Shown piece by piece: positions 38,518 through 45,902 of a stretch of 46,286 bases of DNA. The number at the start of each line of letters is the position of its first letter. The stretch's first letter is position 1. Origin of the DNA: Candidatus Dadabacteria bacterium (lineage in GTDB: Bacteria > Desulfobacterota_D > UBA1144 > Nemesobacterales > Nemesobacteraceae). The translations under genes and the position numbers were made by a program. The stretch covers positions 1-46,286 of the forward strand of contig JAJDTG010000014.1 in the NCBI GenBank assembly GCA_022827275.1. Reading direction: 5' to 3'. A model generated the notes under the pieces. That model was not told where the DNA came from. It worked only from the letters and a program-made list of their open reading frames with translations, and searched no databases.

Positions 38518-39543
38518 TTACGTAAGACCGAGCTTTCTCCGCACTTCTGACTTTTTAAGCCCGGCGGCTTTTTCAAGAGCCCGAATTGATTTTCTCCTCA
38601 GATCAAGCCTGCCGATTCTGCTTTCCCACAGCCTGACTGAGCCGACGCTGACTCCGATCAGCCTCGCAAACTGCGTTGTGTTCAGGCCAAGACGCACGCG
38701 AAGCTTCGCAACATCCTCGCCCCTGAAAACAGATGACTCTCCCCGCGCGGGCCGGGTTCGGGCAGGTTCTTTCAGCTCCCCACTCTTTTTCCCCTGCGGG
38801 GGACGGACTGTTCTGTCCGTTTCTCCACCCTTACCCTCTCCCTCACCGTTGTCGATATCAACCCCGAACACATCCCCTACATCGTCGCTTATACGCCTGC
38901 GTCCGCCCCGGCTCCCGGGTATGGGGATATCCGCGCCTACCATATCCTCGTGGTTTACACCCCGAAGCCTGAAAAGCAGCTCGGGCTGCCTGTCAAGCGT
39001 GGCCCCCACGCCGTAGAGCACCGCGGAGAGATGTTTGCAGAGGGACGACCAGTCAGGGCAGTCGCACTCAAGATCTATTTCCCCGGGACGCGGAAACAGT
39101 CCGTCTTCGGGGTGCGTGACAACCCTCATGACGTTATCGGACAGTTTTCCCTGAAACAGCTCCAGGACTGATCCTATCTGCCCCATGCACCGCTTCTTTA
39201 TGCCATCCCAGCGCTGGGCAGGCAGCCGGGCAATTGACACGTTGACTATGTACAGGTCCGAACCGCTTACAATGGCCCTTATCTCGCCTTCACTTATTTC
39301 CATATTAAGTACAAGACCATTTCGCAGGTAGCTTTTTCCCCTGGGCAGACGGTTTGAGTAATCGCTGAATTTCTCAAGATGCTTGCACCACGCCTGACCC
39401 CAGAACGTTCTGGCAATCTTCCTGCCTTCAATTTCAACGGGATGGAGTTCAACACCCTGTTTGCGAAGCTTCGCAGTGTCCCTGCAGGCCTTGGCACGCC
39501 GCGCGGAAACAGAGGCCTGAGGTCTCCAAGAACGATAACCCAT
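38518..39543 (-). CDS. SWIM zinc-finger protein with C-terminal XRE-type HTH
   Basis: This 341-residue protein has a SWIM zinc finger CDCPDWSSLCKH (Cys160, Cys162, Cys169, His171), preceded by the family region TFWGQAWCKHLE. After a low-complexity basic and acidic linker (about 210-272), the C-terminus contains a helix-turn-helix: LRVRLGLNTTQFARLIGVS followed by GSVRLWESR, like Cro/XRE domains. SWIM proteins of this kind often pair with SNF2 helicases (YwqB with YwqA in Bacillus), and here the SNF2 gene ends 17 bp upstream. I chose the ATG at 39541-39543, ten bases after AGGAGG; a GTG three codons earlier is too close to it. The HTH suggests promoter or DNA-end targeting. Confidence 0.88.
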   Translation of the reverse strand: MGYRSWRPQASVSARRAKACRDTAKLRKQGVELHPVEIEGRKIARTFWGQAWCKHLEKFSDYSNRLPRGKSYLRNGLVLNMEISEGEIRAIVSGSDLYIVNVSIARLPAQRWDGIKKRCMGQIGSVLELFQGKLSDNVMRVVTHPEDGLFPRPGEIDLECDCPDWSSLCKHLSAVLYGVGATLDRQPELLFRLRGVNHEDMVGADIPIPGSRGGRRRISDDVGDVFGVDIDNGEGEGKGGETDRTVRPPQGKKSGELKEPARTRPARGESSVFRGEDVAKLRVRLGLNTTQFARLIGVSVGSVRLWESRIGRLDLRRKSIRALEKAAGLKKSEVRRKLGLT

Positions 39544-39560
39544 ACCGAGCACTCCTCCTC

Positions 39561-42251
39561 TTAAGTAAGCATCTTGGCAACGTCAAGACTGACAATTTCT
39601 ATCAGCTCGTCATTGCTCATTTCCGTTAAAATCGTTTCGCCGCCACCTTTTAGTATATCATCGGACAGTGCGCTTTTTTCTGTTATCATCCGGTCTATCT
39701 TGTCTTCTATGGTACCTTGGCAGACCATTTTGTGCACAAGAACATTGCGCTTCTGGCCTATGCGAAAAGCGCGGTCGGTAGCCTGATTCTCAACCGCAGG
39801 GTTCCACCAGCGGTCAAAATGAATCACGTGAGACGCCTGGGTAAGATTGAGTCCGACGCCTCCGGCCTTTATGGAAAGTATGAAAAAAGGCGGACCGTCT
39901 TCCCGCTGAAACTGCTCAACTCTTTGTTTTCTGCGCGCTACTGCGGTGGCGCCGTGGAGAACTAACCCGGGATGTCCGAAACATCCAGTGAGAAACCGAG
40001 CAAGAGGCTTTGTCATTTCGCGAAACTGCGTAAACACCAGAACCTTTTCCTGTCGCGAAGCAATCTCCTCGCAGATCTCGCCCAGCCGGGAGAACTTGCC
40101 GCTGTCCCCTGCGGCGTAACTCCCGTCGCCAAGCCACTGGGAAGGATGGTTGCATATCTGCTTGAAGCGCGTTATGTAGGAGAGCACGATCCCTCTTCTC
40201 TTTATGCCTTCTGTCTCCGGCCCGAGAGCCATCTTTAACTCGTCCACGGAATTTGCGTAGAGGGCCGCCTGTTTTTTGCTGAGGCCGCAATACGCGTAGA
40301 CCTCAGTTTTGTCGGGCAGATCGGCAATAATGGTTTTGTCGGTTTTCAGGCGGCGCAGAATATACGGTCTCACAAGATTTCTAAGCGGCGCATAACGGTC
40401 CTTGTCGTTTCCATCCAGTGATTTCACAAACGCCTGAAAGCGTTTAGCCGAGCCCAGCAGACCCGGACAGATAAAATCAAACAGCGACCACAGATCCGTA
40501 AGCCTGTTCTCAACCGGGGTGCCGGTAAGGGCTATCCTGGATTCGGCCTTAATCTTTTTTGCGGCCCTGCTCTGCCGCGTGCCGGGATTTTTAATGGCCT
40601 GAGCCTCGTCAATAACGGCAAGTTGCCACTGCTCCCCGAGCAGCCAGTCGTGACGAGACAGCATGCCGTAGGTGGTGATAACCAGATCCCTGCCAGCAAG
40701 ACAGTTGTCCTCCCGCCCCGCCTCCCACCCTCCGTTTCCAAGAGAATAAGACGGATGAACGAGGAGATAGCTTATTGACGGAGCGAACCTGTCAAGCTCG
40801 CTCTTCCAGTTGTTAAGCAGCGACGCTGGCAGCACCAGCAGGGATGGTTTGCGGATTCCCTGTTCTTTAAGGGCGAGGAGCAGCGCTATAACCTGAATGG
40901 TCTTCCCAAGCCCCATGTCGTCAGCAAGACAGGCCCCCAGTTTCAGCCGCGAGAGATACCAGAGCCATCCAAGCCCCTTTTCCTGATAGGGACGAAGAGT
41001 CGCGTTAAGCCTGTCGCCCACAAGCTCAAGTGCCCGCGTACCGGGGTTGCCGAGGTTGTCAAGAACCTTGCGAAGTCCCCTGCCCGCCTGCACAGAAGAC
41101 CACTCTTTTTGCGCGCCTCCCCCGTCAACAGCCGAGAGGTCCGCAGGTGACCCCGCAAGCAGCCGCATACCTTCGATAAACGAAATTCCGCCCTCGGCAA
41201 CACCGCTCTCGACTTTTTTCCAGTGCTCAAGCGTCTCGTTCAGTTTTTCTCCGTCAACTTCCACCCACTGCCCCCTGAACATGACAAGCCCTTCGCTTGA
41301 TGCCGTAAGTTCCTCCCACTCCTCCCGGCTTAAGGTAGTGCCGCCGAGAGTCAGCGTAATGTCAAAGTCAAGCATGGCATCGGCGGTGAATTTTCTCTGG
41401 TCCGAGCTGCCTATTCTCACCGTAACTTGAGGACGGCTGCGTTTTTTCCACCAGTCCGGCAACCTGATCGAAAGACCGGCCTTTTCATAAACCGGAAGAT
41501 CCCTTATAAACTGACAGGCATCTGAAGGAGTCCAGGCCATCGGATAATAGATATCTCCCGACTCAAGCAGTTCCCTGACCAGGGAACTGCTTTGCGAAGC
41601 GAGATAAACGGGCGAGAGCAGATTGATCAGTTCCTCCTTGCGATTGTCCCCGGAGTATTGGCGCAGGGCTTCGCCCAGGGGCTTGTGCCTTACCTCTCCC
41701 CGGTCAGAAAGACGGGTAGTGTAGGTCGCCATAAAGGCGAATGGATAATCCTCATCTCTCTTGTTTTCCGCCAGATGAAAGCAGACCCGGCCCACCTGAT
41801 GCCAGAGAGGGGCCTGTTTTCTGAGAAATTCCGCAAAACCGCTTCCGGCTCTGTTGACCGATTCACAGAGCCAGAAATCAAGCGTCTTCCACGCATGCTC
41901 GAAAACCGCGGAGCAAAGATACTCCGCCCCCTTCATGGGCGGCGCGCTCCGGAGCAGCCGGTCAAGCTCCGGGGACTGCGAAAATTCAACAGGCTGCATG
42001 GAGCGAGGGGAAGATGTTGAAAGGTTGCATCGGGCAGTCAGATAAATACACGCAAACTCCCCCCAGAACCGAAACACCGAAGAGAACTCCGCAGTGTTCC
42101 TGCGGGCAGCCAGAGCAAACAATCCGTCACCGATACTTTTTTCAAAGGCTTTGTCGATAACAGAAGGCACCTGCGACCCGGACGATGCATCCTCTGAGGA
42201 CTTGTAACAATGCAGGCACCCATGCGGAGTTATACCAAGCTCTATTGTCAT
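39561..42251 (-). CDS. SNF2-family DNA helicase/ATPase
   Basis: This 896-residue Swi2/Snf2 ATPase has an N-terminal SNF2-associated domain (about 1-400). The motor follows: LADDMGLGKTIQVIALL (442-458), DEAQAIKNP, ALTGTPVENRL, the C-terminal lobe LVFTQFREM, and AGGVGLNLTQASHVIHFD followed by RAFRIGQKRNVLVHK. These bacterial HepA/YwqA-like enzymes translocate on duplex DNA; specific roles are mostly unknown, though SNF2 proteins recur in phage-defence systems. I chose the ATG at 42249-42251; the frame opens 12 codons earlier. It is 118 bp from the hsdM operon on the same strand and is followed by the SWIM gene. Confidence 0.95.
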   Translation of the reverse strand: MTIELGITPHGCLHCYKSSEDASSGSQVPSVIDKAFEKSIGDGLFALAARRNTAEFSSVFRFWGEFACIYLTARCNLSTSSPRSMQPVEFSQSPELDRLLRSAPPMKGAEYLCSAVFEHAWKTLDFWLCESVNRAGSGFAEFLRKQAPLWHQVGRVCFHLAENKRDEDYPFAFMATYTTRLSDRGEVRHKPLGEALRQYSGDNRKEELINLLSPVYLASQSSSLVRELLESGDIYYPMAWTPSDACQFIRDLPVYEKAGLSIRLPDWWKKRSRPQVTVRIGSSDQRKFTADAMLDFDITLTLGGTTLSREEWEELTASSEGLVMFRGQWVEVDGEKLNETLEHWKKVESGVAEGGISFIEGMRLLAGSPADLSAVDGGGAQKEWSSVQAGRGLRKVLDNLGNPGTRALELVGDRLNATLRPYQEKGLGWLWYLSRLKLGACLADDMGLGKTIQVIALLLALKEQGIRKPSLLVLPASLLNNWKSELDRFAPSISYLLVHPSYSLGNGGWEAGREDNCLAGRDLVITTYGMLSRHDWLLGEQWQLAVIDEAQAIKNPGTRQSRAAKKIKAESRIALTGTPVENRLTDLWSLFDFICPGLLGSAKRFQAFVKSLDGNDKDRYAPLRNLVRPYILRRLKTDKTIIADLPDKTEVYAYCGLSKKQAALYANSVDELKMALGPETEGIKRRGIVLSYITRFKQICNHPSQWLGDGSYAAGDSGKFSRLGEICEEIASRQEKVLVFTQFREMTKPLARFLTGCFGHPGLVLHGATAVARRKQRVEQFQREDGPPFFILSIKAGGVGLNLTQASHVIHFDRWWNPAVENQATDRAFRIGQKRNVLVHKMVCQGTIEDKIDRMITEKSALSDDILKGGGETILTEMSNDELIEIVSLDVAKMLT

Positions 42252-42369
42252 CTTACTGCTGATCCTGCGGCTCTCCAGCAAAGGCATCCTGAACTACTTG
42301 ATGCTACTGGCACCAGAACTCCAGAGGAATACAGACTAATGTCCTCTCCGCTCCGGCCTCTTTTATTGT

Positions 42370-43500
42370 TCACTTGTTATTGCCAGTTAATTCTCCATTT
42401 AATGCTTGTTGAAGAATGGATTCTTTGAGGTTTCTGAGATTGGCAAGTTTTTGTCCGACCAGAGAAGTTATTGTGCTGGATTTTTCGTTAAGAATATCAA
42501 GACTATGCATGATAGAAGCCTCTTCAACCTCCCGCACTTCAGACTTTTCGGGATTAACCTCAGAGATTTCTCTCAACTCCAACACAGGCCGCTTTCCTGA
42601 TATCGATCTCTGTAAATACGAATCAAAAAAATCTTGATAATTCTTCTGGTTTTCTCCCACGTTTTGAATCGCTTTATCAACAACTTGAAATGCATTGTTC
42701 AGTACAATAACGATTTCTTTCTGGGTATGCGGATGAGGAAGCGGAATTCTGTAAGAGCGAACAAACTCTTCAGAGATTCGCCTCAAACCGGATGTACCGG
42801 TGAAGCTGTCATCTCCATTCGACATGAAATTCGGCGTCAGAATATTCAGGTATATCCACTCCGGAAGTATTTTCTCAGAACTTCTCAAGACAAAAAATTC
42901 TGATGAAGCAAAACCAATCTTGTTGTGCAGTCCTCTTGCAATACCTGCTTTCCTGTTTTCAGAACAAGGAGTTACCTTTGCTAGAAGAACGTCATTCTCC
43001 CCGAAATGGTTATATCCCTTGCAGACATGCTTGAGTGGTACTGACTTCTTTACGTCAAAATACATCTGATTTTCATTCATATCCTCCACAGGAATGAATG
43101 ATACGACAGATGCCTCGTCAACATCTATCACTTCGGACTTTCTGGGATTAATCTCACAGACCTCCCCCAACTCCACCACAGGCCACTTTGCTGAATCCGC
43201 TCCTCGATAAAAAGTCTTCCCCACCCGCAAAACATGCTCAATTAAATCCGGATCCCCCAATTTATTAAAAATGGAAATATCAAAGGTGTAAGGGAGACTG
43301 AGGTCGTCTAACCTGCTCATCAGCGGATTGATGCTGTTGCTGTACGTTAAATCCTTCCCGACGAGAGTCAGGTCAATGTCCGAGCCGACCTTGTAATTTC
43401 CCCTAGCGCGAGAACCGTAAATTAAGACCTTCTCAATGCAAGGAAACCCGGCTATGACTTTTCTTATGTCGCGAAGGGTGTCGACATCCAAACCAAACAT
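42370..43500 (-). CDS. Fusion: MNT nucleotidyltransferase + type I specificity subunit (HsdS)
   Basis: This 376-residue protein joins two modules. Residues 1-95 are an MNT nucleotidyltransferase with an intact active site: IYGSRARGNYKVGSDIDLTL (Gly29-Ser30, Asp41, Asp43) and the third acidic residue Asp74 in YTFDISIF. From about 104 (WPVVELGEVCEINPRKSEV) it is an HsdS target-recognition unit with a helical spacer (about 255-300). A second copy of the TRD opening follows (304-328, RPVLELREISEVNPEKSEV) but runs straight into the C-terminal helix (KLANLRNLKESILQQALNGEL). About 125 residues of TRD2 are missing. No internal start exists at the junction. It lies 3 nt after the HEPN gene, the usual HepT-MntA order. 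Confidence 0.9.
   Translation of the reverse strand: MFGLDVDTLRDIRKVIAGFPCIEKVLIYGSRARGNYKVGSDIDLTLVGKDLTYSNSINPLMSRLDDLSLPYTFDISIFNKLGDPDLIEHVLRVGKTFYRGADSAKWPVVELGEVCEINPRKSEVIDVDEASVVSFIPVEDMNENQMYFDVKKSVPLKHVCKGYNHFGENDVLLAKVTPCSENRKAGIARGLHNKIGFASSEFFVLRSSEKILPEWIYLNILTPNFMSNGDDSFTGTSGLRRISEEFVRSYRIPLPHPHTQKEIVIVLNNAFQVVDKAIQNVGENQKNYQDFFDSYLQRSISGKRPVLELREISEVNPEKSEVREVEEASIMHSLDILNEKSSTITSLVGQKLANLRNLKESILQQALNGELTGNNK
42518..43194. repeat. Direct repeats flanking the single TRD of hsdS
   Basis: Two 83-bp copies, 43112-43194 and 42518-42600, encode the conserved opening of each HsdS half (residues about 103-130 and 301-328). They are clearly similar but not identical. Such repeats permit recombination between TRDs. 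Here the second half has only the repeat and the C-terminal helix, as if TRD2 was deleted. Confidence 0.8.
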
Positions 43501-43503
43501 GAT

Positions 43504-43932
43504 CTACAGTCCTCTTTCATCTTTCTCCTTCAGTAAAGCTTCTCTCAACTGTTCGAAAGCGCCATAATACTCTTCCACAACCTCACGAAAGATTTCCTCG
43601 GCGATTTCCTGGTTATACATATGGACGGCATTATTCCTGCTCTCCACGGTCCTAAGCAATGTTCCGTTTTCATCGGACACGAGATTCATTCTGAAGGCAA
43701 GCCTGAAAGCGTCCTTGCTTCCAAGTATTCTCTCTTCGCTTACAGATTCAAAGAAGTCTTTGATCATCTTCCATGCAAGTCCCTGCACAATTTCAAAACT
43801 TTTGATTATCCCTTTTTTCTCCAAAAGAGATAATTCCCTGTCAGATGCCATTTCGATTTCACTCTTGAGAGCATCCAGCGCCCTGCAGTAACTTTTAAGC
43901 CGTTGAACCCACCTCACATCATTTTTGCTCAT
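43504..43932 (-). CDS. HEPN / HI0074-family protein, HepT-like toxin candidate
   Basis: This 142-residue all-helical protein belongs to the nucleotidyltransferase substrate-binding (HI0074) branch of HEPN. The N-terminus reads RWVQRLKSYCRALDALKS and the middle LEKKGIIKSFEIVQGLAWKMIKDF. The motif RNNAVHMYNQ gives R-x4-H-x-Y (Arg99, His104, Tyr106), the RNase motif of HepT toxins including the tyrosine that MntA adenylylates. Its ATG overlaps the hsdM TGA (ATGA, 43929-43932). The MNT-HsdS fusion starts 3 nt after its stop, so all three proteins are co-translated. The RNase activity is inferred from the motif, not shown. Confidence 0.88.
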   Translation of the reverse strand: MSKNDVRWVQRLKSYCRALDALKSEIEMASDRELSLLEKKGIIKSFEIVQGLAWKMIKDFFESVSEERILGSKDAFRLAFRMNLVSDENGTLLRTVESRNNAVHMYNQEIAEEIFREVVEEYYGAFEQLREALLKEKDERGL

Positions 43933-45383
43933 ATTAACTCCTCCATGGATTTCAGCAACTCTTCCGTCTCTTTATCCAACAGTCTTATTCTCGCCAATAT
44001 CTCCTGCGGATGTGTTACAGGCGGTTCTTCCGGAACATGGGGATTTCTTACGGACAGATCAAAGTTTTTCCTGTCTATGTTGCTTACGTCCACAGTCCAT
44101 GATTGAGCGGATTCTCCAAAATTCCTTTGCAATCTCATAAATTCACCTAGGTCATCCTCATTGATGGGATTGGTTTTTCCAAGCTTGCGACCGGGATCAA
44201 GCTGATAGTACCAGATCTTCTCAGTGGGAATCCCTTTATCAAAAAACAGGACAACCGCCCTGACTCCGGTTCCCCTGAAAACTCCTCTGGGAAGATCGAG
44301 CACGGTATGAAGATTGCAGTTTTCAAGCAGTTCCTTGCGCAGACTGACTGAAGCGCTGTCAGTGTTTGAAAGAAAGGTATTTTTAATGATCATGCCGGCT
44401 CTGCCCCCCGATCTGAGCATATTAATGAAATGCTGCAGAAACAGATATGCGGTTTCTCCCGTTTGGATGGGAAAGTTCTGCTGAACCTCCCCACATTCCT
44501 TTCCTCCAAACGGAGGATTAGCAAGAATGACATGATAGCGGTCTTCTTCCCGGATATCAGTCGAGTTTTCTGCCAAGGTGTTGGCATGGACAATATCGGG
44601 AGCGTCCACTCCATGAAGAATCATGTTTATCATTCCGATCATATAGGCCAATATTTTTTTTTCCTTACCGAAAAAAGTCCTTTTCTGCAGAGTTTCCATA
44701 CCTTCGGCGGAAAGCTGCCCTCTCTCTTTCAGATAACTGAAGGCTTCGCACAGAAAACCCGCCGACCCAACCGCTCCGTCATATATTTTATCGCCGATCT
44801 TTGGAGCAACGACTTCTACAATAGTTTTAATCAATGGACGCGGAGTATAACATTCTCCGCCGTTGCGCCCGGCATTTCCCATGCTTTTGATTTTCGCTTC
44901 GTACAAGTGAGATATCTTGTGCTTTTCTCTATGGGAACGGAAGCTTAGAGCATCTATTTCGTTTATCACCTCTCTCAGTTTATATCCGCTTTGAAGCTTG
45001 TTTTTCAGTTCACTGAAAATTTCTCCAATCTTGTATTCTATCGTATCGGAAGCCATCGCCTTCAGTTTAAACCCTTTGAGATAAGGAAAAAGTCTCTCAT
45101 TGACAAATTCCCTAAGGTCGTCACCGTTTAAAGTTTTATTTCGGTCAATTTCTCCACCTTCCGTTCTGGGCGCCGCCCAGACATCCCAACAAAACTCCTC
45201 GTCAATAACGGGTTTATATATACTTCCTTCCAGTCCGGCAACGGTCTTTCTGTTTTTCTCAAAATCATTGAGGTACTTTAGAAACAGTATCCAAGATATC
45301 TGCTCAATATAATCCAATTCACTTCCACATCCTGAGTCCTTCCAAATTATGTCATCAATATTTTTAAAAACTTGTTCAAACAA
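43929..45383 (-). CDS. hsdM: Type I restriction-modification methyltransferase subunit HsdM
   Basis: This 484-residue N6-adenine methyltransferase starts with the HsdM_N helical domain (LFEQVFKNIDDIIWKD, SELDYIEQISWILFLKYL). The S-adenosylmethionine motif is KIYDGAVGSAGFLCEAF and the catalytic motif is NPPFGG. A C-terminal region contacts HsdS. The start is TTG at 45381-45383: GGAGG lies nine bases upstream and homology begins there. The frame stays open for 73 more codons, but those residues do not resemble HsdM. No HsdR gene is seen downstream, where instead HEPN and the MNT-HsdS fusion follow, then SNF2. Confidence 0.94.
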   Translation of the reverse strand: MFEQVFKNIDDIIWKDSGCGSELDYIEQISWILFLKYLNDFEKNRKTVAGLEGSIYKPVIDEEFCWDVWAAPRTEGGEIDRNKTLNGDDLREFVNERLFPYLKGFKLKAMASDTIEYKIGEIFSELKNKLQSGYKLREVINEIDALSFRSHREKHKISHLYEAKIKSMGNAGRNGGECYTPRPLIKTIVEVVAPKIGDKIYDGAVGSAGFLCEAFSYLKERGQLSAEGMETLQKRTFFGKEKKILAYMIGMINMILHGVDAPDIVHANTLAENSTDIREEDRYHVILANPPFGGKECGEVQQNFPIQTGETAYLFLQHFINMLRSGGRAGMIIKNTFLSNTDSASVSLRKELLENCNLHTVLDLPRGVFRGTGVRAVVLFFDKGIPTEKIWYYQLDPGRKLGKTNPINEDDLGEFMRLQRNFGESAQSWTVDVSNIDRKNFDLSVRNPHVPEEPPVTHPQEILARIRLLDKETEELLKSMEELI

Positions 45384-45632
45384 TTTATCGCTCCTCCAGA
45401 AGACTGAAAACCAGAATTCTAAAATAGCTTTCTCGTTCACTTGAAAATATTTTCCACAGATCAAAACCTCTCCAACCAATCCGCGAAGCAATCCATTATC
45501 ATTATTCCGTATTTTTTGCACGTCAGGCAACTGATTTGTATCAGCACCCACGGCAGCAGTTGCGTTTTGACCTCTTCTCAGGAACCTTATGAAAATCTTC
45601 ACAGCCTTTCAAGTTTTTCAGGAGGAATTCAG
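45384..45632. other. Divergent intergenic region hsdM / solute-binding lipoprotein
   Basis: This 249-bp region holds the hsdM ribosome binding site (GGAGG on the minus strand, near 45393-45397) and, at its other end, AGGAGG at 45620-45625 for the plus-strand lipoprotein. It is AT-rich in the hsdM-proximal half. Open frames cross it on both strands, but none resembles a known protein. Promoters for both genes must lie here; I could not identify hexamers with confidence. Confidence 0.4.
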
Positions 45633-45902
45633 ATGAAACACAAAAAAATGTTCCTGGGCCTGGTCATGATAATCGCAGGACTTTTCGCAACTTCCTGCGG
45701 AGATGACGAGGATGAAGCCCTGACTATACTTCTCTGGCAGGCCCCTACTATATCGAACCCTTATCTCGCCAATGGGACCAAGGATTCAGTATTGGAATAC
45801 CACACGGCTCTGGAATTCCACGGAAGGGCCTATTCAGTCCATTGGAGAATAGTATACATTTCAGAAAGAAAATCACTCCCTGTGGCATTTGCGCTTATAT
45901 GA
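45633..45902 (+). pseudogene. Truncated family-5 (peptide/nickel) solute-binding lipoprotein
   Basis: The N-terminus is intact: signal peptide MKHKKMFLGLVMIIAGLF and lipobox ATSC, then LTILLWQAPTISNPYLANGT, which matches the opening of SBP_bac_5 peptide-binding proteins. A perfect AGGAGG at seven bases spacing precedes the ATG. After about residue 50 the similarity stops and the frame ends at TGA (45900-45902) after 89 codons, far short of the roughly 500-600 residues of the family. The body of the gene has been lost, or it continues in a scrambled form beyond the window. Confidence 0.7.

Follow-up and report, generated by a model that had tools for sequence, protein, structure and literature searches.

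In the window analysed here, a stretch of 46,286 nt that makes up an entire contig of a 1.77 Mb Candidatus Dadabacteria draft genome (25 contigs, 95.7% complete), an MntA-like antitoxin domain is fused to the N-terminus of a type I HsdS specificity subunit that keeps one full TRD and the opening of a second. We favor, with a probability of about 0.55, an explanation in which the antitoxin was welded to the specificity subunit and TRD2 was then lost in frame, hsdR being absent. The resulting half-length subunit (half-S) would still methylate DNA, and its MNT domain would silence the HEPN toxin encoded in the same operon.

The inserted cassette and its three genes

The cassette is an insertion between native flanks and holds the genes in the order hsdM, HepT-like HEPN toxin gene and MNT::half-HsdS (Table 1). 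The left flank, up to position 42350, aligns at 94.7% with congener G009 (L116). The right flank aligns at 81% with congener G012 (L117) from 45553 and with G009 from 45777. Since the congener DNA shows the native site, the three genes arrived, or were reduced, as one block of at most 3.2 kb. This block ends 20 bases past the HsdS stop and, beside hsdM, holds only the HEPN and MNT::HsdS genes. No hsdR was found in the cassette, which is flanked by native chromosome, and no cognate HsdR in the assembly. Across the genome, HSDR_N was matched just once, in a separate, complete and unrelated hsdR-hsdM-hsdS operon on contig C6.

Table 1. Features of the cassette in window coordinates.
Feature	Coordinates	Strand	Basis or remark
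Inserted cassette, three-gene operon only	42351..45552	-	native chromosome at both ends
hsdM, N6-adenine methyltransferase (NPPFGG motif)	43929..45383	-	Pfam N6_Mtase 2.7e-57 and HsdM_N
HepT-like HEPN toxin gene, RNNAVHMY (RX4HXY)	43504..43932	-	PF08780 5.6e-30, 104 bits
MNT::half-HsdS fusion gene, 376 aa	42370..43500	-	frame intact, no stop or frameshift
MntA-like MNT domain, residues 1-103	43192..43500	-	Pfam Polbeta (E=5e-13)/NTP_transf_2; PDB MNT 8xeh 1.9e-16
Complete TRD1, residues 105-271	42688..43188	-	Methylase_S; 50% identical to a TRD in G081
CR1 spacer helix, residues ~272-303	42592..42687	-	position after TRD1; helix 275-300 in low-confidence model
TRD2 remnant, first ~28 residues only	42508..42591	-	17/31 residues identical to TRD1 opening
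CR2 spacer helix and tail, residues ~332-373	42382..42507	-	matches CR2 of L072 HsdS
TRD-opening repeat, copy 1	43105..43194	-	nucleotide alignment
TRD-opening repeat, copy 2, 79% identical	42511..42600	-	nucleotide alignment

Two features of the flanks were recorded separately. First, window positions 45553-45902 (+ strand) hold the beginning of a gene for a peptide-binding lipoprotein, which is truncated here and longer in G012; at about 45777 this gene start meets unrelated sequence, and G009 has the same sequence from 45777 onward. In addition, a gene pair encoding an SNF2 helicase (DUF3670) and a SWIM/HTH protein (38518-42287, - strand) adjoins the cassette; some members of the genus retain this pair although they lack the cassette. 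We considered the SNF2 helicase (39561-42287, downstream) as a motor partner and rejected it, because it is a gene of the genus that is 97% identical in G009, where this cassette is absent.

HsdM is intact and has the catalytic motif of the N6-methyltransferases of type I R-M systems. Its start is probably the TTG at 45383, behind AGGAG, within an open frame that extends to 45602. The protein is 64% identical to the HsdM of L099 and 59% identical to that of L072, with the homology beginning at residue 74. The start of the HEPN gene overlaps the hsdM stop. The HEPN protein is a single domain of 142 aa with RNNAVHMY at residues 99-106; it matches the PDB HEPN toxin 8xdj at 1.7e-27 and passes the cut-off of the NCBIfam HI0074 subfamily. 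In the MNT domain, the motif GSRARGNYKVGSDID corresponds to GSX10DXD, the third Asp is D74, and the catalytic columns are invariant. The NTP_transf_2 score of this domain is 29 bits, compared with a cut-off of 21. The two proteins show the Pfam combination of type VII systems (PF08780/PF01934 with PF01909) and the motifs of that type, namely RX4HXY in the HEPN and GSX10DXD plus the third Asp in an adjoining MNT; their scores lie below the NCBIfam equivalog cut-offs (HepT, 23.8 vs. 60 bits; MntA, 25.4 vs. 60 bits). In the Shewanella HepT/MntA pair, the same residues make up the site of RNase activity, the tyrosine that accepts AMP, and the adenylyltransferase site (PMC7641770). The HEPN and MNT of the cassette are a predicted toxin-antitoxin pair, with the catalytic motifs intact in both.

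One full TRD and the remnant of a second

The original prediction had placed an HsdS at 42370-43194 and suggested an N-terminal MNT fusion. The gene extends beyond this range to 43500, and its N-terminal ~103 residues are the MNT domain, as evidenced by the Pfam Polbeta match (E=5e-13). The MNT domain is followed by a linker of ~5 residues, the full TRD1, CR1, the TRD2 remnant, and CR2 with the tail. Pfam Methylase_S matched the fusion a single time, at residues 105-271. At the C-terminus, the protein matches CR2 of the intact L072 HsdS with 43% identity (residues 327-372). In a single-sequence structure model with a mean pLDDT of 33, the C-terminal helix (322-367) was the sole well-predicted part.

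We compared the two copies of the TRD-opening repeat and found 71 of 90 bases identical. The alignment scored 52, whereas none of 2000 codon shuffles scored above 18. The repeat had been predicted at 83 bp and is real, with a length of 90 bp and an identity of 79%. As also predicted, the second copy runs straight into the C-terminal helix. The two repeat starts are separated by 198 residues and 71 residues lie between the second start and the protein end; therefore, TRD2 is ~127 residues short (125 in the prediction). The ancestral TRD2 evidently opened like TRD1, so that the ancestral target may already have been near-symmetric. Furthermore, the TRD1 and TRD2 of the HsdS in G143 are 68% identical to each other; given such one-family pairs in relatives, the loss of TRD2 could keep nearly the same target.

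Given a draft assembly and repeats within the gene, we asked whether the fusion and the half-S could be spurious products of assembly or sequencing, the organism having a full TRD2. This is very improbable. A collapse between the repeat copies would remove TRD1, not TRD2. In addition, the copies are just 79% identical and share no long exact match, the junction is in frame, and MNT::HsdS recurs in other assemblies, a complete plasmid included. In other type I systems, repeats at TRD openings serve switching. The presence of such a repeat in this gene would fit phase variation, in which a TRD2 kept in a silent cassette elsewhere is swapped in via the 90-bp repeat. We give this hardly any credence, as a search of the organism's own genome revealed no further Methylase_S stretch except the two TRDs of the C6 system, and inverted copies near the gene were not found.

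The main rival is decay, by which hsdR and TRD2 were lost, the HsdS no longer reads DNA, and the HsdS part is a passenger in a frame held by the need for MNT. If the HEPN toxin is active, the MNT antitoxin must stay; therefore, selection for MNT by itself could keep the frame open, and the MNT and HEPN motifs are indeed intact. The lack of an hsdR of this type in the cassette and elsewhere in the genome and the untidy TRD2 remnant also agree with decay. Half-length HsdS frames are, moreover, common (~11 of 62 in an 81-genome sample, counted by length, some being contig-edge or split genes). The original prediction had named two observations that would together point to simple decay, relatives with a full TRD2 and no methylation in this host. 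The former is what we found: two TRDs are present in L099, Zymomonas, G008 and G143. However, HsdM, catalytic motif included, is intact, and TRD1, CR1 and CR2 are all open past the MNT domain, a stretch of ~270 residues that would have no protection under decay. The same shape appears again in G216. The open residues and the intact HsdM oppose passenger decay, though not decisively, and we regard it as a serious but doubtful explanation.

The retained C-terminal helix had been read as a selected form tied to the MNT fusion. A frame that is intact through CR2 and the repetition of the shape in G216 are consistent with a selected form; the tie to the fusion is not established. Two of the seven complete fusions have lost TRD2, compared with ~11/62 half-length HsdS frames by the above length count, and this is no excess (Fisher p=0.61). 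On this count, the sample gives no statistical support for an association of the fusion with the loss of TRD2.

Recurrence of the fusion and its unfused relatives

MNT::HsdS fusions occur in six other genomes (G008, G009, G013, G172, G216, and G358). The first three are congeners, and their fusions accompany a different HsdM subfamily. The G216 protein is another, different MNT::HsdS, which has likewise lost TRD2 but retains its final helix; unfused relatives of its MNT, 85-86% identical, are present in G388 and G410. With the MNT of G172 as the query, no relative was found in collections of phages and viruses. In Zymomonas mobilis ATCC 10988, the operon is complete, hsdR included, and lies on plasmid pZMOB01; its MNT::HsdS of 527 aa is annotated merely as 'restriction endonuclease subunit S'. 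GSX10DXD is present in all fusions, and RX4HXY in every partner HEPN checked. A tree of 36 MNT domains needed 8 changes of the fused state, and its starred branches make at least 4 unavoidable. Therefore, the fusion arose, or was undone, repeatedly.

Some of the fusion genes have features of their own. The HsdS of G008 (L025 5651-7660) has two MNT domains in tandem at the N-terminus. The MNT::HsdS frames of G009 and G013 (L063, L064) have no ATG, GTG or TTG before the MNT motif; in G009, a CTG overlapping the HEPN stop may serve as the start.

We scanned the genome contigs with the whole fusion protein and found two distant loci only. One (L071) is an unfused HEPN-MNT pair, and the other (L072) is an HsdM-HsdS-HsdR operon without HEPN-MNT. 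The same gene order in an unfused state was seen in another phylum (L099, in G281), with hsdM, HEPN, MNT, HsdS, a RhuM-like gene and hsdR. The identities of its products to those of the cassette are 64% for HsdM, 54% for MNT and 35% for HEPN; its HsdS has two TRDs, and its MNT and HsdS genes overlap by ATGA. In addition, Acetobacter plasmid L134 has the order hsdM-hepT-mntA-hsdS-hsdR with mntA abutting hsdS, and plasmid L133 has the same gene set minus hsdM. A RhuM-like gene lies inside three HEPN-MNT type I operons (L087, L088, and L099), where it is flanked either by hsdM and HEPN or by hsdS and hsdR.

Known systems and the proposed mechanism

The cassette shares features with several known systems. 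Like the HepT/MntA type VII pair of Shewanella oneidensis (SO_3166/SO_3165), it has a PF08780-type HEPN with RX4HXY adjoining an MNT with GSX10DXD; unlike that pair, its antitoxin is a domain of HsdS, the toxin gene comes first, and both lie inside a type I modification operon. It has hsdM and an HsdS-type specificity subunit in common with type I R-M systems, and its full relatives carry hsdR as well. In contrast to these systems, it has one TRD and not two (a single Methylase_S match, with TRD2 cut to its opening), no hsdR, and an extra MNT domain. Separate M and single-TRD S subunits are found here as in the Type 1 1/2 MTases (M.AhdI, M.BsaBI, and M.PshAI). However, those enzymes lack MNT and serve a Type II endonuclease, whereas the subunit here has kept both helices and the remnant of TRD2. 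For the HEPN genes that lie in R-M operons, a role as back-up suicide effectors has been proposed. Their occurrence there is already known; in the part of the survey used here, HEPN is described as fused to nucleases and helicases, and a fusion between MNT and HsdS is not mentioned (PMC3710099). PrrC with EcoprrI and other HEPN genes in R-M operons resemble the cassette in that a HEPN RNase lies in a type I operon and is presumed to be silenced by the complex (PMC3710099). In PrrC, the HEPN is fused to an ABC ATPase and masked by the complex; here it is a single domain, and an enzymatic antitoxin is fused to HsdS.

The original prediction had stated that half-HsdS proteins dimerize and read interrupted palindromes, and such precedents do exist. 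In nature, the Type 1 1/2 MTases M.AhdI, M.BsaBI and M.PshAI have S subunits with a single TRD that dimerize to act on palindromes, and M.AhdI assembles as 2M+2S (PMC3874165). Among the engineered ones, the CC398 half-S methylates ACCN5GGT (PMC6158711), and EcoR124INT is another single-TRD S subunit (PMC3320862). By analogy, the half-S of the cassette probably still pairs and methylates a symmetric site. The TRD2 remnant of 28 residues is not a clean deletion and may disturb the helix pairing.

In the explanation that we favor, fusion followed by TRD2 loss, the ancestral operon would have been hsdM-hepT-mntA-hsdS(-hsdR), and its two TRDs would have belonged to one family. The loss of a stop between overlapping genes could have fused MntA to HsdS, and an in-frame deletion would have removed TRD2 afterwards. 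The MNT domain would AMPylate Tyr106 in the RX4HXY motif and render the HEPN harmless. Two half-S chains would pair via their helices and join two HsdM in methylating a symmetric bipartite site, with no restriction taking place. Since a single chain holds both the antitoxin and the specificity subunit, the toxin would be freed once HsdS is lost, and the modification gene would be tied to survival, like a guarded defence or addiction module. The two parts of the fusion may be functionally coupled, as its recurrence suggests. More tentatively, MNT::HsdS may be a guarded module of its own kind, in which the specificity subunit itself acts as the AMPylating antitoxin and the HEPN RNase is released once the DNA-reading complex is disabled, displaced or lost; such a module would have been assembled several times, with HsdR and Cmr1 too, and would tolerate a half-HsdS. 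An antitoxin joined to HsdS, HsdR or Cmr1 offers a concrete, testable link from the state of the R-M complex to HEPN. Z. mobilis ATCC 10988 provides a complete example on a sequenced plasmid, and the half-S of the window is a naturally occurring example in which the sufficiency of one TRD can be studied.

The literature searched gave no description of an MNT fusion with HsdS, HsdR or Cmr1, and this absence is weak evidence. Two further kinds of MNT fusion were observed. In G062 (L031 4545-7682), an MNT domain lies at the N-terminus of a complete HsdR (HSDR_N, SWI2/SNF2, and EcoR124_C), with a HEPN upstream. In the type III CRISPR loci of G317 and G271 (L092 4459-5775; L093 3043-4407), a Cmr1-like RAMP protein has a C-terminal MNT, and the HEPN beside it carries RNYLVHTY in L092 and RNLLVHTY in L093.
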